A model generated the notes under the pieces. That model made no database searches. It was not told the DNA's origin and was given only the letters and a program-made list of their open reading frames with translations. A program made the position numbers and the translations under genes. Of a DNA stretch of 64,000 nucleotides, positions 1,888 through 58,416 are shown in pieces. The DNA is from Terriglobus albidus. Lineage in GTDB: Bacteria > Acidobacteriota > Terriglobia > Terriglobales > Acidobacteriaceae. Location of the stretch: assembly GCF_008000815.1 (NCBI RefSeq), contig NZ_CP042806.1, positions 2,852,001 through 2,916,000 of the forward strand. The letters run 5' to 3'. Each line of letters opens with the position of its first letter. Position 1 is the first letter of the stretch.

Positions 1888-3498
<1,611 letters not shown>

Positions 3499-5241: not shown

Positions 5242-5274
5242 AGCGTCGCTGTAAATTCAACCAACCCGTGCGCT

Positions 5275-5310: not shown

Positions 5311-5418
5311 TTTACCTTCCCATGCAAAGTTCTCACGGAGTGGGCTTACATCCTGCTTTTAAGAAAAGTACGACCGGTTTTCCCCTGATTGCGTCATAAT
5401 TTCGTTCGCGAGAGCACC

Positions 5419-6342: not shown

Positions 6343-6375
6343 TTTCCATTGCAAAGCCTTGTGGTGTAAGGCAGC

Positions 6376-7901: not shown

Positions 7902-7905
7902 GAGG

Positions 7906-8238: not shown

Positions 8239-8273
8239 ACGTTTGTTGGACGGTCTGTTGATCGGTTGAGGGT

Positions 8274-10388: not shown

Positions 10389-10428
10389 TGTTACTGGCGT
10401 TGATTGTATCGCCGGGAGGGGTGTGGAG

Positions 10429-10472
10429 ATGCGGGTACCGGATTAAGGCACATCCTGGAACCGTACCCGCGG
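10429..10472 (-). terminator. Possible terminator after the SET gene
   Basis: GCGGGTAC pairs with GTACCCGC across a loop of about 24 bases, between the SET gene stop and dnaX. There is no strong T-run, so this is a weak call. Confidence 0.3.
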
Positions 10473-10482
10473 CGATGAAAAT

Positions 10483-10944: not shown

Positions 10945-11052
10945 AGATTGTGTGGGTGTATCCCTGTGGGGAGAGAGTAGCACGGAACGCCTGTGAACAA
11001 ATGGTATGACGTGGGTTGGCGGCGCCACAGGTCACGGCGTCTAATACGACAT

Positions 11053-11820: not shown

Positions 11821-11822
11821 CT

Positions 11823-12230
11823 TTAGGCCTCGTCGAACTCTTCTTCAATATGCAGGTAGCGGCGCATGTAGCGCAGGGGTTCCTCTGCTGAAGCCATCTC
11901 GCGGAGATGGTATTTCCACGCATCCGTGCGTGCGGAACGGCGTGTATAGGGCTTGCGGATGACGGTGCCGATGGTACCGTCCGCCATGCGCCGTTGAAAG
12001 CTCTGGGAGGGCACCTGGAAGGTGATGGGTTCGCCGGGCTTCCAGAAGGCGTGCGCGAACTCATGAGAAAAGAGCAGGGCGTAGTAACGGCGCTGCTCAC
12101 AGAGCGTGGCTATAGCGTCTTCGCCACTGGTCCAGGGCAGGCCAAGGCGGCTAATGTACCACTTCCGGAAGGGAAAGCCATTGGCATGGGCCTTTCCCAC
12201 AAGCAAAGTCAACAGTTCGTACCGCGTCAT
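11823..12230 (-). CDS. Hypothetical protein
   Basis: From the ATG at 12230 the product is 135 residues (an ATG at 12251 would add seven). It has no signal peptide, is rich in aromatic residues and begins MTRYELLTLLVGKAHANGFPFRKW. A stretch 'YYALLFSHEFAHAFW' is notable; similar YALLFSH(D/E)FA.AFW segments occur in uncharacterised bacterial and phage proteins, so the apparent HExxH is probably not a zinc site. It is convergent with the preceding gene (two-base gap). Function unknown. Confidence 0.6.
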   Translation of the reverse strand: MTRYELLTLLVGKAHANGFPFRKWYISRLGLPWTSGEDAIATLCEQRRYYALLFSHEFAHAFWKPGEPITFQVPSQSFQRRMADGTIGTVIRKPYTRRSARTDAWKYHLREMASAEEPLRYMRRYLHIEEEFDEA

Positions 12231-12338
12231 AAAGACAGGAGAAGCGTCCAATTACAAATACTGCAGTGACCTTACGCTAGGTTGCCCGAAGCAAGTGGTC
12301 AAGACAAAAAGACGTATTTGATGGTGAGATGGAGTCTG

Positions 12339-13550
12339 ATGAAGGTACGAAGCGTTGTAGTGAGTCTAGTGGCGGCGGGGATTCTGACAGCCTCGCAGCC
12401 CGTGTGGGCACAGGCACACCATACCAATCCCCTGAACCTGGATCCGATCGTTCGGGAAGGGTTTGAGCGTTTTTACGACTTGGATTACGACGGCGCACTC
12501 CAGCGTTTTGACAGGGTGGAGGCGGCGCATCCCGAGGATCCGATGGCCGTGGGGTATCAGCTCCTGGTCACGCTCTATCGCGAACTCTACCGGCAGGACC
12601 TGCTGGATACCACCTACTACGCCCACGACAGCTTTATCTTCAATAAACGCGAGACGAATGTCAGTCCTGCGGCGCGCCAGCGGATCGAAGAGTTGACCAA
12701 CAAAGCCGTTGATCTTGCGGAGCGTCGCCTGAAGATCGATCCAAAGGACAAAGATGCCTTGTTCGCCCGTGGATACGCCAAGGGTATGCATGCGTCATTC
12801 GCCACACTCGTGGACCATTCTTTTTCGAAGGCCGCGAAGGAAGGCCTCTCCTCCCGTACAGATTCGGAAGAGGTGCTGAAGATCGACCCTGATTATGTGG
12901 ACGCGAAGATGGCGATGGGAATTCAACAGTTCGCCGTCGCCAGCCTTCCCAGGCTGGTCCGTATTATGGTCGGAATCTTCGGCGTGGGCGGCAATAAGGA
13001 AAAGGGGCTGGTCCTGCTGCGGGACTGCGCTGCGCGCGGAACTGTGACCAGTGTGGAGTCTCGTACGGCGCTCAGCCTGTTTCTACGGCACGATGGACGA
13101 TACGGGGAAGCCCTGGGGGTAACGCAGACTCTGGTGGCGCAATATCCGCACGATTACCTCTTCCGCCTGGAAGAGGCGAATCTTTTGAAGGACGGCGGTA
13201 CCGGCATGCGCGCGGTTGATTCCTATCGGGCGGTCATTGCGGATGCGCACAAGAACGGATACTTCATCGAGCCCCGGCTGCATATGGCCTACTATGGCCT
13301 GGCGGAAGCGGAACGTGGACAGAACCTGATCCATGACGCTGCCGATCACTACCTCGCCGCGGCTTCGGCTCCAGCCGCAAGCGACTGGGTAAAGAAGCGT
13401 GCGCAACTGAATGCGGGCCAGATGCTCGATCTACTGGGTCGACGCGACGATGCAGTGCGTCAGTACCAGTTGGCCTCGGCGCCGATCGGGGACCAGAGTC
13501 AGGCTGATGAAGCGCGCAAATACCTGAAAAAGCCTTACAAAGGGAAGTAG
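12339..13550 (+). CDS. Secreted TPR protein
   Basis: 403 residues from the ATG at 12339, chosen because GGAG lies five bases upstream and the next residues form a signal peptide (MKVRSVVVSLVAAGILTASQPVWAQ). The body is all-helical with TPR-like repeats (FERFYDLDYDGALQRFDRVEAAHPEDP; RLEEANLLKDGGTGMRAVDSYRAVI; HDAADHYLAAASAP). A central glycine-rich hinge (MVGIFGVGGNKEKGL) separates two halves. Likely a periplasmic scaffold; the binding partner is unknown. Confidence 0.75.
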   Translation: MKVRSVVVSLVAAGILTASQPVWAQAHHTNPLNLDPIVREGFERFYDLDYDGALQRFDRVEAAHPEDPMAVGYQLLVTLYRELYRQDLLDTTYYAHDSFIFNKRETNVSPAARQRIEELTNKAVDLAERRLKIDPKDKDALFARGYAKGMHASFATLVDHSFSKAAKEGLSSRTDSEEVLKIDPDYVDAKMAMGIQQFAVASLPRLVRIMVGIFGVGGNKEKGLVLLRDCAARGTVTSVESRTALSLFLRHDGRYGEALGVTQTLVAQYPHDYLFRLEEANLLKDGGTGMRAVDSYRAVIADAHKNGYFIEPRLHMAYYGLAEAERGQNLIHDAADHYLAAASAPAASDWVKKRAQLNAGQMLDLLGRRDDAVRQYQLASAPIGDQSQADEARKYLKKPYKGK

Positions 13551-13566
13551 ATCTGCAGGTCCTTAA

Positions 13567-14211
13567 TTACGCGGAGAGGTGCTGATGCGCCTCTCCGCGT
13601 TCTCGTTTTACCAGACGATAGACCCCCCAGGCGCAGGCGACGATCAGCGCTCCCCACAGCACAATCAGCAACGGTGTGGACCACTCGCTGGAGAAGTGCG
13701 TCCATCCTCGCAGAATGGATCGGCCATAGCGGTAGCCCAGCCAAGCCGCTGCGCCATGACGTATCAGACGGCTGGTGCCAAAGGCGGCGTAGAACTTTTT
13801 GCGAGGAACCTGCAGAACGCCTGCAGCCAGAAGGAATGGCGTCAATGGCGCGGGCGGAGGAAGAATCGCGGGCAGGGCAACTGCAAGAAGTCCATGTTTG
13901 GCTGTCCAGCTGGTGATGCGTTTCAGGTAACGCTGTGGGACACGCTTTTCAAGCGTATGCATGCCGCCCACCTTACCCAGGTGGTAGGTCATACTTCCGC
14001 CAACCAGAGAGCCTGCTGTCGCCACGATGGTTATCCAGAGCCATGCATGGTGTCTTGCCGCCAGAATGACCAGCAGGATGTCCGTGGCGCCGGGAATGGG
14101 CAGTGGAATGAACGATGAGTCCACAACCGCCAGAAGAAAAAGCCCAGCCATGCCCATGCCAGTTACAAGTTGCACTAATCCGCGGCGGGAATGGACGGCC
14201 TGGAGCCTCAT
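13567..14211 (-). CDS. DedA / VTT-domain membrane protein
   Basis: 214 residues with about five hydrophobic segments. The VTT (formerly SNARE-associated) signatures are visible: an early 'DSSFIPLPIPGATDILLVI' reentrant segment, a 'GSLVGGSMTYHLGK' helix with small residues, and 'PAILPPPAPLTPFLLAAGVLQVPRKKF', the conserved Pro-rich / Arg block. DedA proteins act in the inner membrane; some members flip undecaprenyl phosphate or phospholipids, but the substrate is not predictable here. Confidence 0.85.
   Translation of the reverse strand: MRLQAVHSRRGLVQLVTGMGMAGLFLLAVVDSSFIPLPIPGATDILLVILAARHHAWLWITIVATAGSLVGGSMTYHLGKVGGMHTLEKRVPQRYLKRITSWTAKHGLLAVALPAILPPPAPLTPFLLAAGVLQVPRKKFYAAFGTSRLIRHGAAAWLGYRYGRSILRGWTHFSSEWSTPLLIVLWGALIVACAWGVYRLVKRERGEAHQHLSA
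13569..13600. terminator. Hairpin between convergent genes
   Basis: ACGCGGAGAGG pairs with CCTCTCCGCGT around a ten-base loop, followed by TCTCGTTTT on the + strand. It overlaps the last codons of the DedA gene and probably terminates the TPR gene. Confidence 0.6.
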
Positions 14212-14268
14212 ATCCTGCTAGGACGTAGAGTTGTGTTGCAAAGTTCTTGTTCGGCGGGCGAAAAGTTT

Positions 14269-15180
14269 TTATTCGACAAATCGTAGTTCCGGAGCCTGCG
14301 GAATGGCTCCGGTCGCCGCTGCAAGGTCGAAAAAGTGCTTCATCGCTGCGACACACCGCTCATCGAGGACGTAGTGGATGTTTTCGGTAAGGTAGGTGCG
14401 GATGATCTGAGGAGAGACGGCGATGCGTTTCTTCCAATGGGCTACGAGATCTTCGATATGCGCCAGACCAGCGTCGCGGGAAGCGTTCAGGTCATCGATC
14501 AGCAGTGCTGCATTGGTCTGCGCCAGGGCCTCCGCGCTCAGAGCCCAGATGGCGGCCACCCAGGGCAGGCCGGTGCGCGTCGTCCATTCTTCGGCGACGT
14601 CGTACCAGTAGAGACGCTGGCTGGCGTGCATCTCGATGACCGGATGCGATTCGCTGGCGATGAGCGCAGGGTCGCCAATCAGCAGGGCAGCATCAGCATG
14701 CTCAAGCATGGTGTCCACCAGAGGAGCATGCGGCCGGAACTCCGGGTCGGTTCCAAGAAAATGCCGGAAGAGCACCTTTGCATACGCCACGGAGGAACGT
14801 GACGAAGTGTCCGCCGCGAGCGTTCGGATCTGATCCAGAGGAACGCGGCTTACGATCTGAATGGAGCGGACGCGGCGCAGCGAGGCGATTGTGCACCCGG
14901 GAACGATCAGCAGATCGGGGATGGTTGCAAGCGCTGCAATGGGGATCAGGCCCAGATCTGCTTCGCCCTCGGCCAGCTCATGCGCGCAGTTCGACGGCAG
15001 CGTGTAGTGAATGTCGTACCGTTCCGCGAGAGCTTCGCGTTTGGCAGAGTGCTCAAAGTCATAGAGCAGAGGTGCAGGGTTCAGAAAACCGATCGCCGAA
15101 ATACGTAAACGTCCCACTCTTTCGAGTTTACTCAATCGCTGTCCAGTGGAAGCTCTGTTCTGATTTCGTGTCTTCGGCAT
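14269..15180 (-). CDS. mqnA: Chorismate dehydratase MqnA (futalosine menaquinone pathway)
   Basis: Removes water from chorismate to make 3-enolpyruvylbenzoate, the first step of the futalosine route to menaquinone. The 303-residue product has the periplasmic-binding-protein-like MqnA/MqnD fold: 'GRLRISAIGFLNPAPLLYDF' at the start, 'PSNCAHELAEGEADLGLIPIAAL', 'LAADTSSRSSVAYAKVLFRHFLG' and 'ALLIGDPAL'. The first ~22 residues are poorly conserved basic sequence; a GTG just before GRLRIS could be the true start. Other mqn genes are not in this window. Divergent from dprA with only 30 bases between. Confidence 0.88.
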   Translation of the reverse strand: MPKTRNQNRASTGQRLSKLERVGRLRISAIGFLNPAPLLYDFEHSAKREALAERYDIHYTLPSNCAHELAEGEADLGLIPIAALATIPDLLIVPGCTIASLRRVRSIQIVSRVPLDQIRTLAADTSSRSSVAYAKVLFRHFLGTDPEFRPHAPLVDTMLEHADAALLIGDPALIASESHPVIEMHASQRLYWYDVAEEWTTRTGLPWVAAIWALSAEALAQTNAALLIDDLNASRDAGLAHIEDLVAHWKKRIAVSPQIIRTYLTENIHYVLDERCVAAMKHFFDLAAATGAIPQAPELRFVE

Positions 15181-47418: not shown

Positions 47419-47495
47419 GGCCCGGTAGCTCAGTTGCATAGAGCGGCGCACTCCTAAGGCGAAGGTCGCAGGTTGGACTCCTGCCCGGGTCACCA
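47419..47495 (+). tRNA. tRNA-Arg (anticodon CCT), element integration site
   Basis: A 77-nt cloverleaf with encoded CCA. The acceptor stem GGCCCGG/CCGGGTC has one G-T; D-stem GCTC/GAGC; anticodon loop CTCCTAA (CCT, position 37 A); T-stem GCAGG/CCTGC. Oddities: the D-loop AGTTGCATA has C at position 19, and the T-loop TTGGACT has G at 56, so the conserved G19-C56 elbow pair is reversed to C19-G56. The anticodon stem has three central pairs with G27-A43 and A31-G39 mismatches. The 3' 21 bases are duplicated at 57217-57237, marking integration of the satellite element. Confidence 0.88.
47475..47495 (+). repeat. attL (3' end of tRNA-Arg)
   Basis: The 21 bases from G56 of the tRNA to the CCA are identical to 57217-57237. 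Identity stops one base outside on each side. Confidence 0.9.
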
Positions 47496-47620
47496 CTTAC
47501 ACCTTCCAGCAACGTCCAGTAGAATCCAAGAAAGACCTGCAAATACATCAAAACAAAATAGATTTCCCTTTTTTGGGGTTTTAGGTCGTCCGATGACGTA
47601 TGGTGAAAACCAGTGGTTTT

Positions 47621-47683
47621 GGGGATACTTTTTGGGGTACGCGCCTTGTAAAAAGGGGGTACTTCAAAAACCCACGGGGGTAC
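47621..47683. promoter_or_regulatory. Four G4-5(A)TA(C) repeats, candidate integrase arm sites / integrase leader
   Basis: GGGGATAC (47621), GGGGTAC (47634), GGGGGTAC (47655) and GGGGGTAC (47676) lie between attL and the integrase start. Related GGGGGTAT copies lie near the right end (57141, 57153). Confidence 0.45.
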
Positions 47684-47688
47684 TGGCG

Positions 47689-48966
47689 ATGAGATCGGCA
47701 TTGTCGGACGCGAAGGTAAAGCAGGCAAAGGCAGGGACAACAGCTTGGAAGATCACCGATGGCGGAGGGTTATTTCTTCTAGTGACACCAAGCGGCGGGA
47801 AGCTTTGGCGCTGGAAGTACCGCTATCAGGGCAAAGCGAAACTCATGGCACTCGGACAATATCCTGATGTCTCTCTGACTCTCGCCCGAGAGCTGCACAG
47901 AAAGGGCCGTGAGCTATTGGCTACCGGCGTCGATCCGATGGCCCAGAGGAAGGCGGACAAGCTGAGAACACGCGAGGCGGACGAGAACTCGTTCGCGACC
48001 GTCGCGGCCAAATGGCTGGAGCACTGGCGTGTTGGCAAGTCCGTCCGGCATTGGGGTACGGTTAGCCGCCGTTTGAAGGCCGACATCTTGCCGATCTTGG
48101 GAGCATGTCCCATCGGGACGATTGGGGCTCCGGATGTGGTTGCGGTGGCGAAGGCAATCGAGGGACGTGGACCCACAGACCTCCCAAAGCGGTCACTGCA
48201 ATACATCGGGCAAATCTTCCGATATGCCATCGCTCATGGGTATGCGACACGCAATCCTGCGAGTGAGGTAAAACCCGGCGACATCCTGAAGTCAACGCAA
48301 ACGGTCAATCAGGCTTGCATCGATGCAAAAGAGCTGCCTGATCTACTCAAAGCCATCGAGGTCTATCGCGGGACGCAAATGACGCGGCTGGCGTTCAAGC
48401 TGATGGCCCTGACCTTCGTTCGGACGGCAGAATTGGTTGGCGCGAAGTGGAGCGAGTTCGACTTAGCTGCGGCACGTTGGGATATCCCGGCTGAGCGGAT
48501 GAAGCTGAAGGCTCCCCACATCGTTCCGTTGGCAAGGCAAACGATTGAAGTACTGGAGTCATTGCGCCTCATCTCGGGGGATTCCGAGTACCTGTTCCCC
48601 AAGGCATTATCCGGGGCGGCTAGGAGATCAAGGACTCCATCGAAGGCGGCGGACGCCGCTGCTGGCAGGTCTGTGACGATGAGCAAAAACACTCTCCTTG
48701 AAGGGCTGGACCGCATGGGCTACAAGGGCCGGATGACGGGGCATGGCTTCCGGAGCTTGGCATCGACGATTCTCAATGAGCATGACTTCGATGAAGCGCA
48801 TATAGAACTGCAGCTCGCCCACATGAAGCGCAACAAGGTCGCGGCGGCTTACAACCATGCGAAGTACCTGAGGCAGCGCACAGTGATGATGCAGTGGTGG
48901 GCCGACTTCTTGGAACAGACCCAGCGTGGCGTCAAGGTTCTTCCCTTCCGGTCGCTTGTTGGGTAA
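47689..48966 (+). CDS. P4-type tyrosine integrase
   Basis: 425 residues from the ATG at 47689, with GGGGG ten bases upstream. The N-terminal DUF4102 arm-binding domain is 'ALSDAKVKQAKAGTTAWKITDGGGLFLLVTPSGGKLWRWKYRYQGK...LGQYPDVSLTLARE'. It is followed by a SAM-like core-binding domain (about 115-200) and the catalytic domain: Arg in 'LTFVRTAELVGAKW', 'HGFRSLAST', and the nucleophile Tyr region 'HMKRNKVAAAYNHAKYLRQR'. It recombines the element at the tRNA 3' end 190 bases upstream. It appears intact. Confidence 0.95.
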   Translation: MRSALSDAKVKQAKAGTTAWKITDGGGLFLLVTPSGGKLWRWKYRYQGKAKLMALGQYPDVSLTLARELHRKGRELLATGVDPMAQRKADKLRTREADENSFATVAAKWLEHWRVGKSVRHWGTVSRRLKADILPILGACPIGTIGAPDVVAVAKAIEGRGPTDLPKRSLQYIGQIFRYAIAHGYATRNPASEVKPGDILKSTQTVNQACIDAKELPDLLKAIEVYRGTQMTRLAFKLMALTFVRTAELVGAKWSEFDLAAARWDIPAERMKLKAPHIVPLARQTIEVLESLRLISGDSEYLFPKALSGAARRSRTPSKAADAAAGRSVTMSKNTLLEGLDRMGYKGRMTGHGFRSLASTILNEHDFDEAHIELQLAHMKRNKVAAAYNHAKYLRQRTVMMQWWADFLEQTQRGVKVLPFRSLVG

Positions 48967-49217
48967 CGGATTGCCGCCGCTGGGCCTTCGAGCGTGAAAA
49001 TAGCGCGTTGAAGAGGCCACGGACGTCACACGGGGCAACTGGGCGCGATTGTGGGGCGACCTAGGCGATTCGGGCAACCGGGGGTCTTCTTCTCCAGCCC
49101 CAACGGGTAGCCACTGCCCAATGCTTTGAGCTGCAACTTCGCCTCCGTGAGTGTGGCAAAGTGCTTGGATTCCACTCGGGAACAGGTGATCCTTGGACGC
49201 CCCCGAGGAGGAACGAC
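48967..49217. other. Element spacer, no gene seen
   Basis: No reading frame with a ribosome site is found until GAGGAGG at 49202-49208, which belongs to the next small gene. Confidence 0.4.
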
Positions 49218-49415
49218 ATGACCAGCACACCAACACTCACAATCGACCAGACCGACGAACTAATCCTGAAAGCCTGCACACCCGAGGACGGAGCCATTGA
49301 GGACGCCGAGGTAAGCGAGACGGAGGTCTCCTACTTCTTCGAGTCCGGCGCGGTCGGCACAGTGTCCCGTGTAAGGGGAGCGGTCCAGATCACAAGTGCA
49401 CACCGTAGTCGGTAA
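49218..49415 (+). CDS. Small acidic element protein
   Basis: 65 residues from the ATG at 49218; GAGGAGG about nine bases upstream decides this start over an earlier ATG at 49161. The sequence is Thr/Glu-rich (MTSTPTLTIDQTDELILKACTPEDGAIEDAEVSETEVSYFF) with a more basic C-terminus. No family recognised. Confidence 0.55.
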   Translation: MTSTPTLTIDQTDELILKACTPEDGAIEDAEVSETEVSYFFESGAVGTVSRVRGAVQITSAHRSR

Positions 49416-49545
49416 CGCCCCTCCGACCGCACTAGACGAACCTGACGCGACTGGGCGCTTACTCTAGGCGACCTGCAAACGGGTCCGGGCACGCCACTGT
49501 GATTTACGATGGCGAAGACCAAGGTTTAGAAAACCGGGAAGCCTC

Positions 49546-50055
49546 GTGACTATAACTCAAGCTGTGACGTTGGATGAGATCGAAGAACATCTCAGGAACC
49601 TCGGTTCAGGCAATCACTCCGATAACATGGATCGGCTGAGCCGATTTTCATGCTATTTCTGTGTCGTGATGACGGAGGACGATTTCTTGGGCACCGTTTT
49701 CCTGCAAAACCCGGAGGTGGCGAGCATCGTCCCCGAGGGGGAAAGCCGTAAGCTTCGAGATGTGGCACGACGTGGGATTGATCTTCAACTGCCGGTTCTC
49801 GGCCCGAATTGGAACCTCGCGACGAACCTCGACCAGATGCGCAGTCAGCTCGCTGGTGGCAGTATCTGTTTGGGCTCCCCTGTCCTGTGTGAGGCTAGAG
49901 ACGGTGAGGAAAAACACGGGGCTTGGTACCTGCAGGACGGTTCTCACCGCTCCCTTGCGTATGCGATGTTGTTGCTCATGGGTGAGGCTCAATATGAGGA
50001 GCAGATCGCATTTTGTGCAATGAATGCTCCGATGGCGGCAGCCCTCACACGATAG
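49546..50055 (+). CDS. Element cargo protein with ParB-like 'DGSHR' motif
   Basis: 169 residues from a GTG at 49546 (GGGAAG upstream; ATG at 49628 is an alternative). The sequence 'WYLQDGSHRSLAYAMLLL' resembles the DG(N/S)HR loop of ParB/Srx-type nucleotide-hydrolysing or kinase folds, in which the His/Arg contact phosphate. The rest (for example 'VFLQNPEVASIVPEGESRKL') is not recognised. It is an orphan of the integrase arm. Possible roles are a defence or regulatory cargo; this is inference. Confidence 0.55.
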   Translation: MTITQAVTLDEIEEHLRNLGSGNHSDNMDRLSRFSCYFCVVMTEDDFLGTVFLQNPEVASIVPEGESRKLRDVARRGIDLQLPVLGPNWNLATNLDQMRSQLAGGSICLGSPVLCEARDGEEKHGAWYLQDGSHRSLAYAMLLLMGEAQYEEQIAFCAMNAPMAAALTR

Positions 50056-50224
50056 AGGCGACCAACCCAAGGTCAGCAGGAATAGCCAACTCACGATCTT
50101 CCGCCTCGTCTTTATGGCTCTCGTACCAATTGAACAGGCCTGCTGCGAGCAAAATCGCAGCGGCAAGAAGCAACACTGATCTCATGGCTTTTCCAAGCCA
50201 ACGACCAAGACGTACATAGTTCAT
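50045..50224 (-). CDS. Small single-TM element protein
   Basis: 59 residues from ATG at 50224, or 46 from ATG at 50185, which has the better ribosome site (GGAAA five bases upstream). One TM segment (RSVLLLAAAILLAAGLFNWY) is followed by an acidic linker (ESHKDEAEDRE). The 3' end overlaps the convergent gene by 11 bases. No family recognised. Confidence 0.45.
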   Translation of the reverse strand: MNYVRLGRWLGKAMRSVLLLAAAILLAAGLFNWYESHKDEAEDRELAIPADLGLVASIV

Positions 50225-50308
50225 AGGGCGGCAGTCTAGCAGCCCCCTCGTCATCCCGAAAGGAAAATCCCATCGGACTCTCGTGGAGGCCCTTGTACCA
50301 TCCTCTTT

Positions 50309-51292
50309 ATGAACGATCCACTCAGCGCAGAACCCGACCTCATCAAAGATCTGCTTACGAAACCCATACCTAAAAACCTCTGGCACTACACCAGTTACAA
50401 AGCCTTTCAAGGCATCGTCGAGTCGAAGCAGATTTTTGCTACCGACCTCCGCTACCTCAACGATAGCCAAGAGTTCGTTCATGCCAAGGAATTGGCCCAG
50501 GAGCTTGCCGACGAAGTAGTAGATTCGTCCGCTGCCGGTGTGGTGGTGAATGGGATGCTCAAGAAAGCCGTGGACTTAGCATTCAATACGGGGCCGCTTC
50601 GTGCAGATCGACTTCAAGTTATGGTTGCGTCGTTTTCCAATGCGCGAGATCAGCTAAGCCAGTGGCGAGGCTACTCGGGGGCATCAAGCGGAGTGAGTAT
50701 ATCGTTCGACCTTTCGAAGATCCGACCGCCATTGGGGGTCGAGACTGCGGTTGTGTTCGCACCCTGCGTCTACGAGCTTTCGGAGAAAAAGGCGTTACTA
50801 CAGCGTGCGCTCTCTCATATGGTTGGCGTTGTGGCTGAGTGGGTGCAGGACGTTCAGGAGGCGATCCAATCAGACCCCCAGCTTCTTAACAAAATTAAGA
50901 ACCCGACTGAACATGGTTCCCCCTACGTCAATGGGTTGGATCTCAATGCCCGTCTTCGACAGGCCATGACGAAGGTCAACTTCGACCTCGTCCGCCTTTG
51001 TCCGTTATTGAAAGATTCTTCGTTTTCAGAGGAGCGAGAGTGGCGTTTGGTACTCCCAATCTCTGCGGGCAAGCAATTGCAGAATCCAATAAAGTTCCGT
51101 CCCACCAGCAACACGCTAGTTCCGTATATTCCGTACCCGTTATGCGGACCGGACGAACCGGCACCAGTAAATGACCTTATCCTTGGGCCAGGAAGCCACG
51201 CCGAGGCGGAAGCGGCAACATTCTCATTTCTTCAAAGTAAACACATAATGGTCAAGCCTCAGACTTCAAAGGTTCCTTATCGTGCTTCTTAG
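50309..51292 (+). CDS. DUF2971 protein (candidate defence cargo)
   Basis: 327 residues. DUF2971 signatures: 'NLWHYTSYKAFQGIVESKQIFATDLRYLNDSQEFVHAKELA', 'VMVASFSNARDQLSQWRGYSGASSGVSISFDL', and near the end 'DSSFSEEREWRLVLP'. The H-Y-T, N-D-S.E, S-Q-W-R-Y and E-W-R residues recall the pocket of ADP-ribosyltransferase-like folds. The family is frequent in prophage-satellite and defence-island cargo but biochemically little known. No clear Shine-Dalgarno before the ATG. It converges on the capsid-protease operon. Confidence 0.8.
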   Translation: MNDPLSAEPDLIKDLLTKPIPKNLWHYTSYKAFQGIVESKQIFATDLRYLNDSQEFVHAKELAQELADEVVDSSAAGVVVNGMLKKAVDLAFNTGPLRADRLQVMVASFSNARDQLSQWRGYSGASSGVSISFDLSKIRPPLGVETAVVFAPCVYELSEKKALLQRALSHMVGVVAEWVQDVQEAIQSDPQLLNKIKNPTEHGSPYVNGLDLNARLRQAMTKVNFDLVRLCPLLKDSSFSEEREWRLVLPISAGKQLQNPIKFRPTSNTLVPYIPYPLCGPDEPAPVNDLILGPGSHAEAEAATFSFLQSKHIMVKPQTSKVPYRAS

Positions 51293-51297
51293 ACGTG

Positions 51298-51963
51298 TCA
51301 CAGAGCGGCGAACTCCGACGCTTGCTTGGCCAACTTCACCAGCTCCGCCACGAAGGCCTTGGTCCCGTCGTCCTCATCGTCTTCGAGGACAGGATCGTCC
51401 TCATCGTCAACGCCGTCGAGCAACGCCTTCAGGTGCATTTGAATGCCTTGCTGGTGCCGGTCGATGGCCTTGCGGTGATCGCTGATGGCCTTCAGGTGCT
51501 TCGCCCTGTCCGCATCTGACACGCCCTTCACAGACGTGACCATCGCAGCCTGGTTCATCGGGATCGTAACGATGGAGACCTCCCACAATCTTAATTCGGT
51601 CAAATGCCGAATGTCTCCGTCGTAGGTGGCCTGAAGCGTGTCGAAGCCAATCGACAACCCTTTGATGATGCCTTCGCGCATGAACTTGTAAGCTTTTTGA
51701 GCCGTCGGATCGCTCATTAGCAGGGAGCCGATGACCTGCAAACCGTCGCGCGAGTCGATGACCTTACAAGAACCGATTGGCTCGTCGGTCTTATGCTGCC
51801 ATAGCACCGGGAAGGTCTTGCCGGGAATTAGCGTTCTGGAAAATGCGCCTGCATCTACCACGTCATTTCCAAGGTCAACGTTGCCGTAGACCGAAGCCAT
51901 GCCGACGAAGGTGCCTGCATCATCGACGCTCTTGATCTTGAGATTGAAATCTCTGTGCTCCAT
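51298..51963 (-). CDS. HK97-family prohead protease
   Basis: 221 residues from the ATG at 51963, GGAGG six bases upstream. U35-type protease core: 'GTFVGMASVYGNVDLGNDVVDAGAFSRTL', catalytic His57 in 'PVLWQHKTDEPIG', Ser104 in 'GIIKGLSIGF', and 'LRLWEVSIVTIPMN'. A C-terminal acidic coiled segment (~180-215) resembles a scaffold tail. In tailed phages this protease matures the capsid. Here it follows the capsid gene instead of preceding it. Confidence 0.93.
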   Translation of the reverse strand: MEHRDFNLKIKSVDDAGTFVGMASVYGNVDLGNDVVDAGAFSRTLIPGKTFPVLWQHKTDEPIGSCKVIDSRDGLQVIGSLLMSDPTAQKAYKFMREGIIKGLSIGFDTLQATYDGDIRHLTELRLWEVSIVTIPMNQAAMVTSVKGVSDADRAKHLKAISDHRKAIDRHQQGIQMHLKALLDGVDDEDDPVLEDDEDDGTKAFVAELVKLAKQASEFAAL

Positions 51964-52042
51964 GTTCGCCTCCTCCAGTTTTTTGGCATATGAACACACA
52001 GCGCGGAGCCGCCATAAAGACAGGCCCCGCGCTGCATTGATC

Positions 52043-53197
52043 TTATGCTGGCGAACTGGAAAACGTTCCTGTGACATAGCTCGCGGGGCGTTTGACCACA
52101 AGGACCAAGCGCTTTTCCGCTCTCACAGCAACGAGGTTTTTTACGAAGTAGTCTTGATGCTCGGTAGAAATTTCCACCTGCATCTCCATCCGATCACGAA
52201 TTTGCGAGGCGATGGGACTGCCGGAGCCGACAAGGAAGGTGCCGTTGGTGATGCTGGTGGTGTAGACCACGTCGAGGCCGAACAGCGATGGGCGGGCATT
52301 GGTCTGCGGGTCACCCAGAATGTAGCGTCCGAAGCTGTCCTTGGTCAGGCGCATCTCGAACCAGTCATTCGGATGAAGGATGATGAACGTCGGATCGAGT
52401 TCCTTTGATGCCGTGATCTGCTGGATGGCGCGACCGACGATGTCAATCTTGTTCCAGCCCTTCGTCGGTGAGAGCAATCCGGTATTGAAGCTCGAAGCCT
52501 GAGTGATGAGGCCGTGCAGGTTCTCACCAGTGTTATCGCCGGAGAGAAGCTGAAGTTCCTCTTCGAGGTTGACATAGTACGGCAGCGTCGAACCAATGAA
52601 GCTGTTCAGTTCCACGAAGTCGTCCAAAATCTGCTTGGTTGCAGGAATCCAAGTGGCGATGGTCCGCACCTTCTCGGAGACCGAGGTGAAGGTGACGGCG
52701 TTCTCCGGCTTGGTGCTGGCTTCCACGACCGGCGATGCGATGTTCATCGGCGTGTTGACCTTGACAAAATCAACAACTTGCATCGAGGTCGGTGCCGCGC
52801 TGAGCAGATCGCGGACCTTCAGAACCTGCCGCGCTTCCTGCGTGATCCCCGGAATCCTATCGATCTGAAGCACACCCGATACAGCCTGTCCGACTGCTGC
52901 CGAGGTGATGGTGGTCTTACGTTCGAAGTCTGCGAAGTCCTTGCCAGACAGGTTGATTCGCGCCACCCCTTTGCGGTCACGGAGAAGGCGGGCGACGTCT
53001 TCGTTCTCCTTGAGCTTCTCGGAAAACGATGGCCCGGATATATCCGCCGAGTGCTTCTCAGCGAGCTTGATGTCCAGAAAATCCACTTGCTTCTGTAGTT
53101 CTTCTAGCTGGCTCTTTGGCGCAGCGTTTGCGATGCCCTCTTTAAGGGTAGCAAGCGCGTTTTTGAGTTCGAGGTCAAGGCTGTTGGGCGTAGGCAT
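52043..53197 (-). CDS. HK97-fold major capsid protein
   Basis: 384 residues; GGAG about nine bases before the ATG at 53197. The N-terminal ~100 residues are a coiled-coil delta/scaffold domain (LDLELKNALATLKEG..QLEELQKQVDFLDIKLAE), normally removed by the prohead protease. The HK97 coat fold follows: 'IPGITQEARQVLKVRDLLSAAPTSMQVVDFVK', 'WIPATKQILDDFVELNSFIGSTLPYYVNLEEELQLLSGDNTGENLHGL', 'FIILHPNDWFEMRLTKDSFGRYILGD', 'LFGLDVVYTTSI'. It appears complete. Confidence 0.94.
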   Translation of the reverse strand: MPTPNSLDLELKNALATLKEGIANAAPKSQLEELQKQVDFLDIKLAEKHSADISGPSFSEKLKENEDVARLLRDRKGVARINLSGKDFADFERKTTITSAAVGQAVSGVLQIDRIPGITQEARQVLKVRDLLSAAPTSMQVVDFVKVNTPMNIASPVVEASTKPENAVTFTSVSEKVRTIATWIPATKQILDDFVELNSFIGSTLPYYVNLEEELQLLSGDNTGENLHGLITQASSFNTGLLSPTKGWNKIDIVGRAIQQITASKELDPTFIILHPNDWFEMRLTKDSFGRYILGDPQTNARPSLFGLDVVYTTSITNGTFLVGSGSPIASQIRDRMEMQVEISTEHQDYFVKNLVAVRAEKRLVLVVKRPASYVTGTFSSSPA

Positions 53198-53413
53198 GGT
53201 GAGGCGCTCCTGTTATTGCACAGAATGGGGTTGGTGATTTCACCCCGAGTGCAGGGAGCGGCTCGGACGGGCGCTGGTACGCGGAGACTTCAGAACGCGA
53301 GTGCTTAACTACGCGGGTCGCGGAGCCTCGGAACGCCTGTTCCTGATTATGCACCTATACGTCGGGGTGAGGCCGAATTTTCTCGCTCGGTGTTTTCATG
53401 GCTTGGCTCTTCT
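53198..53413. other. Short gap between capsid and 83-aa genes
   Basis: No gene supported in this 216-bp stretch; it may hold a promoter for the capsid-protease pair. Confidence 0.35.
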
Positions 53414-53665
53414 TTAATGAACTATGGTCGGTGGTCCCGGTGGAAGCGGCTCTGGCTCCGGCTGGCTGGCTTCGATGATCTGTTGGTGGCCATAGACAGC
53501 CTTGCCGAGTAGCGAAATCTCCTTTTGCATCGCGAAGATCACTTCGTCCTGAGCGGCGATTCGCTTCTCCTGGTCGCGCACAAGACCGATGAACATCGTG
53601 ATAACGTCCCTTACATCTGCTTCGATGGTGGGGTCTTCGGCGGGTAAAACATTGTCGTTGTCCAT
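53414..53665 (-). CDS. Small helical element protein
   Basis: 83 residues, GGAG six bases before the ATG at 53665. Acidic start, a predicted coiled-coil helix (IEADVRDVITMFIGLVRDQEKRIAAQDEVIFAMQKEISLLGKAVYGHQQ) and a Pro-rich tail (PEPEPLPPGPP). It sits where a portal or scaffold gene would be in a phage, but has no resemblance to a portal. Could be a scaffold or assembly accessory; not recognised. Confidence 0.65.
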   Translation of the reverse strand: MDNDNVLPAEDPTIEADVRDVITMFIGLVRDQEKRIAAQDEVIFAMQKEISLLGKAVYGHQQIIEASQPEPEPLPPGPPTIVH

Positions 53666-53682
53666 TCACGTCTCCTTTGGTC

Positions 53683-54159
53683 CTACATGATCTTGAGTTC
53701 AAGGGGATCGATGCCGCCGTTGTCGCCGACGGTCTGGATGCGGGTCCTCGATGCAGGCGTCAGCCCGAATTCTCTGAGCTGCCGGCTCACGATCTCGGCC
53801 TGCGCGTTGATGATCGACAGCAAAGGGGACTGCTGCACGTAGCCGCTCCCCGTCTTCATCAGCAGGCCCGAGTGTGAGCCTTTCGCTGCGGTCTTCACCA
53901 TCAGCGTCTGGGCTTCGATCAGGGTCGCGTAGGCCTGACACAGAATCCCGAGCGCAACGCCATCGCTTTCGCTCAAGACCCTCATGCTCAACAGGAGCGG
54001 CACCAGCCTGCGCCATTCACGACGCGCAGCAGCGGTGAGGTGCTTGGGCATCTCCGGAGCACCAGCAAGTGGTATCGGCTCACGATCTGGCAGCGGTCGA
54101 TGCGACCTGTTGCCTTCAAAGATCTTCAACGCGGTTGGTTTCCTTGGCGGTCCCGGCAT
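53683..54159 (-). CDS. terS: P27-family small terminase subunit
   Basis: 158 residues from the ATG at 54159 (AAGGTG eight bases upstream; ATG at 54180 would add seven). Canonical P27 start 'MPGPPRKPTALKIFEGNRSHRPLPDREP', then 'PKHLTAAARREWRRLVPLL', 'LGILCQAYATLIEAQ', and 'SPLLSIINAQAEIVSRQLREFGLTPASRTRI'. Small terminases choose the DNA to package. With no large subunit on the element, it would have to redirect a helper's motor. Confidence 0.92.
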   Translation of the reverse strand: MPGPPRKPTALKIFEGNRSHRPLPDREPIPLAGAPEMPKHLTAAARREWRRLVPLLLSMRVLSESDGVALGILCQAYATLIEAQTLMVKTAAKGSHSGLLMKTGSGYVQQSPLLSIINAQAEIVSRQLREFGLTPASRTRIQTVGDNGGIDPLELKIM

Positions 54160-54472
54160 GTTATTCACCTTCGTCTCCATCTTGAACCAATCCCCCCGTA
54201 CGCCAACCTGCGATTTTTCGTGAAAGAGGTGCCTGCGGTACGGGGTCTGTTTTTCCTAGAGATCAAGACCGCCCTCGCCTTGCACGTTCCGGTATGTGAC
54301 AACTAACTTACTTTGCACGTGGCGGGAGGTGATAAATAACTCGCCCGCACCACTTACTAAGTCGCCTTCGACAACTTACTACGCAGGCCCGCGTTGGCAC
54401 GGAAACGGCCCGTCCTGCTGTCGCCACGCTGTGGAGCATGGGTTATAACCTTCCATCGCTTCAGCGGCTCTC
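54160..54472. other. Noncoding stretch with ACTTACT repeats upstream of terS
   Basis: No gene seen. It has three copies of ACTTACT (54306, 54352, 54374) and an imperfect hairpin GTGGCGGGAG...CTCGCCCGCAC (54319-54351). This is a plausible site for the late promoter or a packaging (pac/cos) signal of the element. Confidence 0.4.
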
Positions 54473-54688
54473 CTAGAGCACTTCGTTGAGTGCTTGGTCG
54501 AAGCGTTCGTCTTCTTCGCGGCGACCTTCCAGCAGCATCAGGATGTGCAGGTCTTCTTCCATGCGCTTCTCTTGAAGCTGGGTCCAGCATCGCTGCATGC
54601 GTTCGGCACGCTCTTTGTCTTCGTCGCTGATGGCGCACTTGGTCAGCTCATCGATCAGGCGTTGCATGCGCTGGGCGGTTGTCATCAT
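54473..54688 (-). CDS. Small helical element protein
   Basis: 71 residues (GGAG about eight bases upstream), all charged helix: 'MQRLIDELTKCAISDEDKERAERMQRCWTQLQEKRMEEDLHILMLLEGRREEDERF'. It starts just past the stop of the upstream gene (two codons apart). Not recognised. Confidence 0.6.
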   Translation of the reverse strand: MMTTAQRMQRLIDELTKCAISDEDKERAERMQRCWTQLQEKRMEEDLHILMLLEGRREEDERFDQALNEVL

Positions 54689-54692
54689 TGGA

Positions 54693-55028
54693 TCACTCCT
54701 TCGCCGGCTTTAGCCAATCTGCTTCTGCTTGGGAAGCCGCTTTAATTAGTTCGATGACAAGCGACCTCCGTGGCTCCGGTAGGAGATCGACCAACTGCGA
54801 AAGCGGAAGGTTCGGGTGTTGTTTCCGAACATCGTCGGTCAGGAAGGCTACTTCCTTCGCAATGGCAAGTTCCTCGTCGATCTTTTGCAGTTCCGCTTCT
54901 GCGTCATCTTTAGCGGCCTGAGCCCATGCCACGAATTCCTCAACCTCCATCTCGCCAGCGTCGCTGGGTAAGTTGAGGTCTGGGTTTTGCACCGCGTTGA
55001 GCAGCTCGGGGACTTCCTTCACTTTCAT
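54693..55028 (-). CDS. Element protein, paralogue of the next
   Basis: 111 residues. The N-terminal half is an acidic coiled coil (VEEFVAWAQAAKDDAEAELQKIDEELAIAKEV). The C-terminal half 'DDVRKQHPNLPLSQLVDLLPEPRRSLVIELIK' is clearly related to the C-terminal half of the next upstream protein. Two bases separate it from that gene. Function unknown. Confidence 0.65.
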   Translation of the reverse strand: MKVKEVPELLNAVQNPDLNLPSDAGEMEVEEFVAWAQAAKDDAEAELQKIDEELAIAKEVAFLTDDVRKQHPNLPLSQLVDLLPEPRRSLVIELIKAASQAEADWLKPAKE

Positions 55029-55030
55029 AG

Positions 55031-55261
55031 TTATGCCTCCTTCGGGAATGGAATGATCTCTGGAAGTTCATCGAGCAGAGCTGCGAGGCGTGACCGTTCT
55101 GGCTCCGGCAGGTATAGCCCAAGCTCAAAGATGCGAACGTCCGGGTGCTCATCTCGCACCGGTGCAATCAGGTTCTCGATCTCGTCGCAGATAGCAAGGC
55201 GGCGTTGATCTTCAGCGGCCCTTGCGCTTGCTGCGTGGTTGTTATGGTCAAACGTAGTCAT
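55031..55261 (-). CDS. Element protein, paralogue of the previous
   Basis: 76 residues; its ATG overlaps the primase stop (ATGA), indicating coupled translation. C-terminal 'IAPVRDEHPDVRIFELGLYLPEPERSRLAALLDELP' matches the VR-x-x-HP...LPEP-x-RS-x-L pattern of the downstream protein. Function unknown. Confidence 0.65.
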   Translation of the reverse strand: MTTFDHNNHAASARAAEDQRRLAICDEIENLIAPVRDEHPDVRIFELGLYLPEPERSRLAALLDELPEIIPFPKEA

Positions 55262-56526
55262 TGTTGCCTGCGTGACCTGCAAGTCTGACGTGCGCGTTCG
55301 CAGCGCGGCGTGGTTCTGTATCTGGCGCGTCCGCCAACAGCGGATCGGAGCGCTGTAACAGTTGATCGAAAGTCGTCGAGGGCGATGGCCTGCATGAATT
55401 GGTGTTTGCGGAGCGCTGCTGTACCACTAGGGCTCAGTCCCACTAGACCATTAGTGAGACTAGTGGGACCTTTTAGTGGGACACTTACCCGGTAGGTCGC
55501 AGCTCTTTTGTGGGGAATGCAAGGCTGCACTAACTCCAGTTTTCCTTCTGCCACGGCGCGTTGACGGTAGCGCCGAATGAGACTCCAGTCGCAGCCGAAC
55601 AGGATCGCGATGCGTTCCAATGGCAGAGCAATCGGTAAGCCTGGGCGCTGACCCTGAAGTTGCTTGAAGAGAGCCACGAACCGCGCGTACGTCGATTCAT
55701 AAACGCCCGCATTCATAACTTCCCACGCTGCTTCCAACGGATCAGGGCCACCCACTGGGTAACGAGATACGCTCGCGGCAATTGCCAGAACCTCGTTCTT
55801 CTCTAAGGGCGGTATGCAGCGCCGGAAGTTCGCTTCGAGGAGAAAAGCTTCCAGTTGCTCATAGGTCATGCCGCGTCTGCGCTCCGCTCCAGCCAACCGC
55901 GTTAGGCCGTCGTTTCGCTGGTTCTCGTACAGCTTGCCGATAATGTTCGGCTGTTTCGAAGTCGGCGTGGCCAAGAGGTGCAACAGCCATTCCGGTGTCG
56001 GAAGAACTGCAGCATCTGGATTCACCCAGCGATATTCGTGGCCGGACGGATGGAGTGAGGGCGGGGCGATTACATAACCTCCGTCCCCACGCACATCTAA
56101 GCCAGGCCGCAGTCTTTCGACGCTGTTGCGAATGCTGACGTCCTGCGGATACTTGAAATAGCAATGCCTACCGTGCGCCGTGATCGCGGTCAATGTTTGC
56201 AGCCAGAGGTCGCCATACCTGCTGGCCATTTCGCGTAAGGACACCGCGCCCTTCTCTCCGTCGACATCCAGCACCCAGATGCCTGAACCGGTACCTGTCT
56301 TGACGGCCCAGTTACAGCCCCGATGAGTGACGGCCCACTGTTTGATGATGGACGGCTCGCAGGTTGCCTTATCCGGCCAGTTTGTCAGGACAGGCACTTT
56401 GTCTTTCTCCTTGCAGGGATGGAGCCTCCAACCCCTCGCAGCGAGGCGAAGCACATCTTCAAGAGAACCTGTTGAGTCGGATATCGCACGGCGACGACGA
56501 CGATGTGGTAAGTTCGACTTGTCCAT
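55258..56526 (-). CDS. Bifunctional primase-polymerase (Prim-Pol)
   Basis: 422 residues. N-terminal prim-pol domain: 'AARGWRLHPCKEKDKVPVLTNWPDKATCEPSIIKQWA', the metal motif 'IWVLDVDGEKGAVSL', the conserved His region 'TAHGRHCYFKYP' and 'RPGLDVRGDGGYVIAPPSLHPSGHEYRW'. The middle part ('FLLEANFRRCIPPLEKNEVLAIAASVSRYP') is the primase C-terminal-1 type region, then a winged-helix-like segment. There is no helicase domain, unlike P4 alpha. It would start replication of the excised element at an origin, probably at the right end. Confidence 0.9.
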   Translation of the reverse strand: MDKSNLPHRRRRRAISDSTGSLEDVLRLAARGWRLHPCKEKDKVPVLTNWPDKATCEPSIIKQWAVTHRGCNWAVKTGTGSGIWVLDVDGEKGAVSLREMASRYGDLWLQTLTAITAHGRHCYFKYPQDVSIRNSVERLRPGLDVRGDGGYVIAPPSLHPSGHEYRWVNPDAAVLPTPEWLLHLLATPTSKQPNIIGKLYENQRNDGLTRLAGAERRRGMTYEQLEAFLLEANFRRCIPPLEKNEVLAIAASVSRYPVGGPDPLEAAWEVMNAGVYESTYARFVALFKQLQGQRPGLPIALPLERIAILFGCDWSLIRRYRQRAVAEGKLELVQPCIPHKRAATYRVSVPLKGPTSLTNGLVGLSPSGTAALRKHQFMQAIALDDFRSTVTALRSAVGGRARYRTTPRCERARQTCRSRRQQ

Positions 56527-56571
56527 GGGGTAGTCCTCACTCTGGCCCTGCTGGCTGCTCCGGCAGGGCTT

Positions 56572-56805
56572 TTACTTGCGCCGCCGTGGACGCGGGGCGG
56601 CGGGAACCTCAGGTGCAGCAGCGATACGGGCCTCGACCCAGCGATTGACATCAGCCTCCAGCCAGCCGACCGCCCGCGCGCCCAGTCTGCGAGGAGCAGG
56701 AAACAGACCGGCGGCGACCATGGCATAGATTGAACTTTTCGAAAAGGGCACCCGTTGCTGTACAGCGGGCAAACGTAAGAAACTCTGACGTTCCAGGACA
56801 TTCAT
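56572..56805 (-). CDS. AlpA-like excisionase/regulator
   Basis: 77 residues, GGAGG six bases upstream. Winged helix-turn-helix of the AlpA/MerR-like type: 'FLRLPAVQQRVPFSKSSIYAMVAAGLFPAPRRLGARAVGWLEADVNRWVEARIA' plus a basic tail. AlpA proteins activate or direct excision of satellites. It is the first gene of the minus-strand operon and lies next to the iterons, a likely binding region. Confidence 0.88.
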   Translation of the reverse strand: MNVLERQSFLRLPAVQQRVPFSKSSIYAMVAAGLFPAPRRLGARAVGWLEADVNRWVEARIAAAPEVPAAPRPRRRK

Positions 56806-56897
56806 GGACGGCCTCCGTCGCTACAGGAATAAGTTCCGTAGAGTACGGTAACGCGAATCATTTTTTGCCTGACGTCACTGCGGGCCAAAACGGCTTT

Positions 56898-56936
56898 CCC
56901 ATGCGTGCCATGTTTGCCATGTTTCCCATGCTTCCC
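56898..56936. repeat. 9-bp iterons
   Basis: CCCATGCGT, GCCATGTTT, GCCATGTTT and CCCATGCTT in perfect 9-bp register, followed by CCC. Confidence 0.7.
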
Positions 56937-57140
56937 AGGAATTGCCTCAAAATGCCTCGAAACCAGTGCAAAAAAAAAGCGCTTGACAAGCCCTTTAGAG
57001 ATTTCACTACGGCCTGTAAGTCGTTTGAAAATTAGAGTTGCGGGCAATCGGGAGGATGTGCAACTGGGCCTAAGCAGGGCAGGGAAAGCATTCAAAGAAG
57101 AAAAGCCGCCAGAGAAGCGGCCCGTTCATATCCGTTTATT

Positions 57141-57160
57141 GGGGGTATAGCTGGGGGTAT
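57141..57160. repeat. Paired GGGGGTAT boxes at the right end
   Basis: Copies at 57141 and 57153 resemble the GGGGGTAC boxes near the left end; candidate arm-type sites. Confidence 0.4.
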
Positions 57161-57216
57161 TTCTCTCAGTATTGAAGCACTATCTCTATATGATTCAGAT
57201 ACTTACATAGAGAGCA

Positions 57217-57237
57217 GGACTCCTGCCCGGGTCACCA
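57217..57237 (+). repeat. attR
   Basis: A 21-base perfect copy of the tRNA-Arg 3' end (47475-47495); it marks the right boundary of the element. Confidence 0.9.
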
Positions 57238-57275
57238 TTCATTTCAATCACTTAGCTTTCAGAAGCCCTCCATCC

Positions 57276-57620
57276 GGCTCCACCGCCCGTACCGTCTCCC
57301 GCATCGCCCTGCAGATGGTCCAGATGGTCAACAGCACCTTTGAGGCGGAGATGACCATCGCCTTCGGCGCCCGCAACATCGAGCTCACCCGCACCCTCCA
57401 CCGCCGCGCCGTCCAGCTCTCGCTCATCGTCTCCGTCACCATCGTCGCCGGCATGATGCTCTTCGGCCCCTGGTTCCTCACCCATTGGACCCACGGCCAC
57501 GTCCCGCCCAGCCGCGGTCTGCTCGGAATCCTGCTGCTGGTCGTCATCCTCTTCTCCCTGTGGTCCACCAGCTCCACCCTGATGACCTCCACCAACCAGC
57601 ACCAGAAGCTCGCGGAATGC
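57276..57620 (+). pseudogene. Polysaccharide flippase (Wzx-type) fragment
   Basis: An open stretch without its own start and without N- or C-terminus. The translation includes 'TARTVSRIALQMVQMVNSTFEAEMTIAFGARN' and 'WSTSSTLMTSTNQHQKLA', both typical of lipopolysaccharide/O-antigen flippases, with two hydrophobic segments between. Homology stops at about 57620, where the sequence switches to an integrase fragment on the other strand. Confidence 0.6.
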
Positions 57621-57654
57621 TTCAACCAGGTACTCGAAGAAAAAGGGAAGCGCG

Positions 57655-57990
57655 GTAATACCCCAATCTGCTCTGCCGACTGCTCTAGAACCGACCAAAT
57701 AGCCCAGTCGCCCAGATCGTCGTCGATCAACTTCCCGCTCTTGGAAAGCGGCCGTAGCAAGCGGCCGCCCTCGATCTTGGCCGCAATCATCCAGGCATCG
57801 ATTCCGTGCTTGACCCATAGCGGAATCGCCACGGTGCGGACTCTGCCTCCTTTCCCACTAAGATCGGGCAAGACCCAACAGCCCTCGCGCATCTCGATAC
57901 CGCCAACGTCCGCCAGCTCCTGACGGCGCAAGGCGCAGCCCAGCATCAACGCCAAAATCGCATAGTCCCGCTTGCCCTTGATCTTGGAGC
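57655..57990 (-). pseudogene. Tyrosine recombinase fragment
   Basis: The minus strand encodes 'KIKGKRDYAILALMLGCALRRQELADV' and 'GKGGRVRTVAIPLWVKHGIDAW', i.e. the first catalytic Arg region and following sheet of a phage/site-specific integrase. The N-terminal domain and the HxxR/Tyr part are missing. A relic of an earlier insertion at this site. Confidence 0.7.
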
Positions 57991-58416
57991 GGTCCGGGAC
58001 CGAGATCGAACGGGTCCTCGAAGTGAACGAACTGCACGTTGTTTCCGCAGAGGTTGTCGAGGCCGCACGAGACAGCCTAGTGATAGGGCAGGGTTGAGCG
58101 CCGTTCACTCATACGCCAAATAACGACAAAAGATCTACGACAAATAGCTTCGCACACTACACAAGTGTTGCATCGATCCATTGAGACCGCCCCGTATTTC
58201 GGGGGATTATTCGGTTGGCTGACTCGCGGACATTATGGCCCCAATTCGGGCACTACTCGGGATCGCTTTGAACACCGAAATAATTCCTCTCGTTGGTTTT
58301 TTCGCCCTCGTGACATAGCGATGGCACTCAACGCCGAAGAGATTACGACGGTGCCTGAGGCGAAGCGCGAGAGTCTGGAGGCGCGGCCGGAGAAGGTGCT
58401 GCGGTAGTATTGCGAC
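57991..58416. other. Unassigned stretch between relics and acyltransferase
   Basis: No intact gene. A frame 58165-58407 ends six codons before the acyltransferase; its C-terminal 'MALNAEEITTVPEAKRESLEA' could be a gene remnant, but I cannot identify it. Confidence 0.35.

Follow-up and report, generated by a model that had tools for sequence, protein, structure and literature searches.

Several integrated elements that carry capsid genes of their own have been described in bacteria. For the mycobacterial phiBN42_1, the genes listed are an integrase, an excisionase, a primase, a prohead protease and a major capsid protein; portal and terminase are not among the genes named in the accessible part of the source, which gives sizes of 9.3 kb for phiRv1 and 10.8 kb for phiRv2 (PMC3986857). 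The latter two have been named as similar to phage-inducible chromosomal islands (PICIs), candidate PICIs being defined in the accessible text of that study by an integrase together with a capsid (PMC10654092). Capsid-forming PICIs (cfPICIs) also carry a portal, head–tail connectors, the large and small terminase subunits (TerL and TerS) and HNH, and the Streptomyces satellites MulchRoom and MiniFlayer have their own capsid genes, TerS, TerL, portal and scaffold but no primase, as far as the available excerpt describes them (PMC10690885). The subject of this study is an element of 9,763 bp from Terriglobus albidus (Acidobacteriota), located in a stretch of 64,000 nucleotides (contig NZ_CP042806.1, positions 2,852,001 to 2,916,000) that is called the window; unless a locus is named, coordinates refer to it. 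The element is best read as an integrated phage satellite that would make its own shell and provide for the copying and addressing of its own DNA, without recognisable genes for a packaging motor, portal or tail. This reading is assigned a probability of roughly 0.7.

Boundaries and core genes

The element is flanked by two exact direct copies of the 21-bp end of a tRNA-Arg (CCT) gene, the integration target (47419..47495, plus strand; ARAGORN, Rfam RF00005). Both copies lie on the plus strand, attL at 47475..47495, as the 3′ end of the tRNA gene, and attR at 57217..57237. The 21-mer is found twice in the genome of 6,405,582 bp and its reversed control not at all, so the repeat is not due to chance, in line with the bounded, intact-looking element and perfect tRNA-Arg duplication reported in the initial annotation. 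In eight same-genus genomes examined, from 18 others in the genus, the tRNA-Arg gene is present at the site in all eight, a single exact 21-mer is found at the gene in 7/8, and no integrase match was found beyond it in any (1.7–11.7 kb searched, two stretches being short because of contig ends). The site is unoccupied in these eight genomes. A search with joined flanks across the genus demonstrated no empty-site junction, because the right flank is not conserved (7/19 genomes, own included, match part of it). Adjoining attR, a degraded tyrosine-integrase-like fragment lies on the minus strand (57248-58108; PF00589, E = 0.007, below the cut-off), perhaps the debris of an older element.

All six core genes proposed from the sequence were matched in Pfam. 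A tyrosine integrase is encoded on the plus strand (47473..48966; PF13356, PF22022, PF00589; phrog_1), followed by a short stretch of cargo genes that includes one for a DUF2971 protein. As listed, the integrase open reading frame (ORF) opens within the tRNA gene; its true start probably lies near 47689, since the Arm domain starts only at residue 77. A minus-strand block then has the order AlpA, Prim-Pol, three small ORFs, P27 TerS, a helical protein, capsid and S78 protease. The AlpA-type regulator is a candidate excisionase (56572..56805; PF05930, E = 1.1e-13), and the Prim-Pol replication protein (55258..56526) matches PF09250 (9e-40) and PriCT_1 PF08708 (8e-12). The P27-type TerS (53683..54180; PF05119, 1.7e-19; phrog_83, 4.5e-35) precedes the genes for the shell.

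The HK97-type major capsid protein counts 384 aa (52043..53197; PF05065, 1.5e-33; phrog_10, 3e-53), with the gene of the S78 prohead protease 3′ of it (51298..51963, the ORF being open to 52101; PF04586, 7.8e-26; phrog_80, 5e-51). Compared with the PDB, the capsid protein matches 1ohg (HK97 gp5) at 3.8e-59 from residue 106 on, and also 3qpr (385 aa); the approximately 103 residues preceding the mature region are roughly as long as the Delta scaffold of HK97. Between the window element and its relative L080, whose capsid is 83% identical, dN/dS is 0.11 for the capsid gene (dS 1.3) and 0.20 for the protease gene (dS 1.1), values that indicate purifying selection on both. Just upstream of the capsid gene, an 83-aa helical, coiled-coil-like protein is encoded (53414..53665, minus strand). 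AlphaFold models it as one helix (residues 12-67, pLDDT 84), and a role as scaffold, shell-size or portal-docking factor is speculative.

Motor, portal and tail genes

The initial annotation had recognised no large terminase or portal, and profile searches agree. TerL and portal profiles were built from acidobacterial phages, with seed proteins confirmed in Pfam, and searched, with filters switched off, against the 1,330 ORFs of at least 30 codons in seven att-bounded elements, the window element and six relatives; the best E-values, 2.9 for TerL and 2.5 for the portal, are at chance level. The window element has four ORFs of at least 300 codons, namely integrase, DUF2971 protein, capsid and Prim-Pol, and since all four are assigned, no room is left for a portal gene. 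A portal hidden among the small proteins at 53414, 54473, 54693 and 55031 was rejected, these being too short (71-111 aa). The structural comparison suggested for these proteins gave a partial answer regarding portal or connector folds: of the modelled ones, the protein at 53414 is a lone helix, and that at 54693 (single-sequence model, pTM 0.38) has no match among PDB folds (best E 3.7). For head–tail connectors and HNH nuclease, no Pfam or PHROG match was found in the scanned window proteins, although short, diverged connectors could escape such a search. Neither did tail genes match in these proteins, apart from one chance-level PHROG match to a tail fibre (E = 0.56).

Relatives and gene order

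Related loci were collected in several surveys. The capsid survey matched 7/150 relatives' genomes (own included), 11/299 genomes of the class and 39 loci on viral contigs, and capsid peptide patterns searched over 84,980 species gave 6 loci. The protease survey gave 34 viral-contig loci, later 80 kept of 557, and matched 23/396 genomes of the phylum. Profile annotation covered 248 loci and separated them cleanly. Gene order was counted in 110 deduplicated capsid loci with at least 3.5 kb upstream, TerL and portal being sought on the same strand up to a distance of 9 kb. In 94 of these, the protease gene precedes the capsid gene and TerL or portal is present. The order of the window element, capsid before protease, is found in 12, with TerL or portal in 0/12; a full-length prophage with the same genes, which had been named as the finding that would speak against a satellite, was thus not encountered. 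One locus, L246, has protease before capsid without TerL or portal and is itself att-bounded, and in three (L071, L074 and an end-cut capsid in L128, on the same contig as L009) no protease is recognised, all without TerL or portal. Before deduplication, the same four classes, in the order TerL- or portal-bearing, L246, capsid-first and no protease, count 111, 1, 15 and 3. The association of gene order with TerL or portal has a Fisher p of 5e-15, a value that ignores shared ancestry. Ordinary prophages in the same-family genome set carry TerL and portal and are arranged in another gene order.

As the initial annotation had proposed to check, the architecture recurs at other tRNA genes. Seven att-bounded capsid-bearing elements of 8,667-10,178 bp, window included, occupy six tRNA types in Acidobacteriota. 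The other six, all with exact att repeats, are L067 (KBS 96, tRNA-Glu, 10,178 bp), L069 (G164, tRNA-Asn, 9,564 bp), L080 (Edaphobacter aggregans DSM 19364, tRNA-Ser, 9,862 bp), L246 (G486, tRNA-Thr, 9,324 bp, 5160-14483), L071 (G294, tRNA-Arg, 8,668 bp) and L074 (G304, tRNA-Lys, 8,667 bp). Besides the satellite L067, KBS 96 harbours an HK97-type prophage, L066. A protease is recognised in five of the seven; L071 and L074 have a distant capsid and a D5-type helicase-primase. L246, in which the protease gene comes first and neither TerL nor portal was found, is from a different Acidobacteriota family. In one check, exact att repeats at a tRNA were found for 6/16 loci, to which L246 is added; no repeats longer than 12 bp were found at the tRNAs adjoining L049 and L070, and eight loci showed no tRNA.

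In 8/10 elements inspected, a helical ORF of 66-94 aa is the first or second ORF ahead of the capsid gene. These ORFs align weakly with the window protein (17-30% identity), and their common ancestry is not shown. Replication genes vary among the elements and include Prim-Pol, an HTH_36 initiator-like gene, DnaB and D5 helicase. Prim-Pol was rejected as a family marker because of this variation and because it gave no viral-contig match.

Some loci are peculiar in their arrangement. L009 (IMGVR_UViG_3300036802_000310) is a 16-kb contig with two opposed capsid-before-protease elements, each with an integrase. Two different satellites, with capsids on separate branches, are present in G087 (contig 23; L049, L050) and in G164 (L069, L070). 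L048 (5609-7333) is a capsid-before-protease locus with a large serine recombinase (PF00239/PF07508) and no tyrosine integrase.

Capsid and protease histories

Capsid and protease trees were computed for 61 loci, 15 with capsid before protease (L053 counted as satellite) and 46 from phages. Phage rows were hand-picked. Of 64 loci selected, 61 had both proteins and the other three (L229, L232 and L233) were dropped; L246, L071, L074 and L051 were left out. An earlier tree excluded 19 long-branch or partial loci. In the capsid tree, the satellites are scattered among the phages, with 8 label changes, 7 of which are forced by well-supported branches. Constraining the satellites to one clade is rejected by the approximately unbiased test, both for the 13 core satellites (p_AU 1.4e-5) and for the full set of 15 (1.7e-4). 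The protease tree has 3 label changes, and 13/15 satellites stand on one branch in the best tree. A mixture model gave identical counts of label changes, 8 and 3. Moreover, three pairings of the capsid tree are rejected for the protease: the window element, L080 and phage L002 (p_AU 1e-7), L127 and L016 (1.5e-4), and L030 with five phages (2.8e-3). The window capsid is 77% identical to that of phage L002.

From this discordance of the two trees it therefore appears that satellites and phages have exchanged capsid genes several times, in one direction or the other, and that the protease mostly stayed. Such a pattern would be the expected footprint of a satellite with its own shell and a borrowed motor, portal and tail, since the shell would have to match the portal and neck of local phages and the protease would not. 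The proposed reason why capsids are swapped and proteases kept is accordingly that a borrowed portal has to dock onto the shell.

Proposed life cycle and alternatives

In the proposed life cycle, the integrase would recombine at tRNA-Arg, AlpA would serve as regulator or excisionase and Prim-Pol would initiate replication of the satellite. A procapsid would then arise from the capsid protein, whose Delta scaffold is built in, and the protease of the satellite. A helper of the TerS-TerL-portal-protease-capsid kind, which is seen in Acidobacteriota, would contribute the portal, TerL, the connectors and the tail. Its motor may be directed onto satellite DNA by the satellite-encoded TerS. Occasionally, the satellite capsid gene would be replaced by a phage version, the protease being retained. 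An extended form of this proposal, in which a family widespread in Acidobacteriota has a lineage-specific protease, repeatedly takes its capsid from local phages to fit portal and neck, and uses the helical protein to set a small shell or to dock the portal, is put forward tentatively, with somewhat less than even odds.

Several points weigh against the satellite reading. Shell assembly, excision, helper, particle, packaging and transfer, as well as portal fit as the cause of the swaps, are inferred. The genome holds a single PF05065 capsid match, that of the element itself, and neither portal PF04860 nor terminases PF03354, PF03237 and PF20441 were matched in it, other portal and TerL families not having been searched; therefore no such helper prophage is resident, and a helper would have to arrive from elsewhere. 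TerS is recognised only in the window element, L067, L009 and L071, and also in L127. In the latter (IMGVR_UViG_3300014501_000244, 1923-5585; the contig is 5.6 kb), capsid and protease are followed by an HK97-gp10-like PF04883 gene and a tape-measure-like ORF, which makes this locus an exception with tail genes. Support for the branch of 13 proteases is moderate (90/77); the proteases of L049 and L053 fall outside it, all 15 as one clade having p_AU 0.039, and the capsid pairings of L049 with L031 and of L053 with L052 are not rejected by the protease (p_AU 0.51 and 0.25). Finally, a copy in the same genus, G008, is broken, with capsid and protease in pieces.

The main rival is co-assembly with the helper capsid protein: instead of building a satellite shell, satellite capsid and protease would mix with, shrink or poison the helper capsid, and the satellite DNA would travel in helper-made shells. 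Mixed assembly also fits the closeness of satellite capsids to phage capsids (as to that of L002), whose positions in the tree they follow, and the additional helical protein encoded ahead of the capsid gene. A poison would need less, however, than a full-length capsid with a Delta region and a dedicated protease that forms a separate lineage, each subject to purifying selection, and co-assembly is considered unlikely. Less probable still is that a full HK97-type prophage has lost its terminase, portal, tail and lysis genes. Full prophages of these bacteria have homologous capsids and proteases, which would agree with such decay, as would the broken relative in G008, but similar sizes and the same missing genes recur at six tRNA types, the capsid-first order never accompanies TerL or portal (0/12), dN/dS is low, replication genes and AlpA are kept, and the att repeats are perfect. 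Nor are the relatives all differently decayed, the outcome that had been named as telling against a satellite: one is clearly broken, versus many that are open. A capsid domesticated as a host-serving compartment or as a particle resembling a gene transfer agent is very improbable, for while shell and protease without a portal could seal as an empty cage, att sites, integrase and replication genes are still present, the spread is patchy (any capsid match in 11/299 class genomes) and the site is empty in 8/8 same-genus genomes fetched.

Accessory genes and cargo

Of the small ORFs, that at 49161..49415 (plus strand) gave no match in the PHROG search and has 7 profile matches in the 248 loci, including L009, L049, L050 and L065. 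Among fetched loci, its family is confined to those with capsid before protease, which makes it a possible hallmark of the satellite family. The cargo region further encodes a 169-aa protein (49546..50055, plus strand) with neither a Pfam nor a PADLOC match, and the DUF2971 protein (50309..51292, plus strand; PF11185, 1.3e-7; phrog_1762, 1.7e-17; weak PADLOC match to PDC-S31, 2e-4), which is likely cargo. The three small minus-strand ORFs are one of 71 aa (54473..54688; best PHROG E 0.21), a helical one of 111 aa (54693..55028) and one of 83 aa (55031..55282) with profile matches to relatives in L049 and L050.

Defence cargo is known in satellites. In L069, the slot downstream of the protease holds a predicted type IIG restriction-modification enzyme (E = 9.5e-253), and this slot can thus hold defence genes. 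A PDC-M55C/SspE-like protein is encoded near L048, where no att was found, and 6/9 cargo proteins scanned with PADLOC had no match. Because the protease-adjacent slot holds a defence gene in at least one att-bounded element, such elements may spread phage defence among soil bacteria.

Comparison with known systems

To our knowledge, the satellites known to make a capsid encode motor and portal as well, and in classic satellites both shell and motor are missing. A class between the two would show how far the shell is separable from portal and motor, and would also account for the long-puzzling mycobacterial elements with a capsid and no portal. From the natural capsid swaps it would be possible to predict the helper portal that a given satellite shell takes up, so that portal-capsid fit becomes testable.

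Classic PICIs and P4-like satellites use or remodel the capsid of their helper. The acidobacterial elements resemble them in having a size near 10 kb, an integrase, an AlpA-type regulator, a primase, in some cases TerS, and defence cargo; the window element differs in that a PF05065 capsid is encoded between its att sites. With cfPICIs it has integrase, AlpA, primase, its own capsid and protease, and small terminase in common; unlike in cfPICIs, TerL and portal were sought in it and not found, and it is not a cfPICI as these are described in the available excerpt. The helper of a cfPICI contributes nothing but tails. Own capsid genes are shared with MulchRoom and MiniFlayer, which differ by their TerL, portal and scaffold and by having no primase. 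From a complete HK97-type prophage the element differs by the lack of detected TerL, portal or tail genes.

The initial annotation had suggested an undescribed satellite type, a claim that is not supported in this form, as a near-identical core set is printed for phiBN42_1 (PMC3986857) and phiRv1 and phiRv2 are called PICI-like in the accessible text (PMC10654092). For acidobacterial satellites of this kind, no description was found in the open-licence literature, which does not establish their absence in print. Likened by published description only, and as far as the accessible text goes, the window element shares with phiRv1, phiRv2 and phiBN42_1 att boundaries, a size of about 9-11 kb, integrase, regulator or excisionase, primase, protease and capsid. 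phiRv1 and phiRv2 also carry a protease and a small terminase; phiRv2 lies at tRNA-Val, and att repeats are common to the mycobacterial elements and the window element. In the mycobacterial elements, the protease gene comes before the capsid gene, an order that the protease-first L246 resembles. The acidobacterial elements differ in belonging to another phylum and in having the capsid gene before the protease gene, except in L246, and capsid exchange with phages is not described for the mycobacterial elements in the accessible text of these sources. This kind of element is foreshadowed in mycobacteria, and what is new is the reversed gene order of the acidobacterial family and its capsid exchange.

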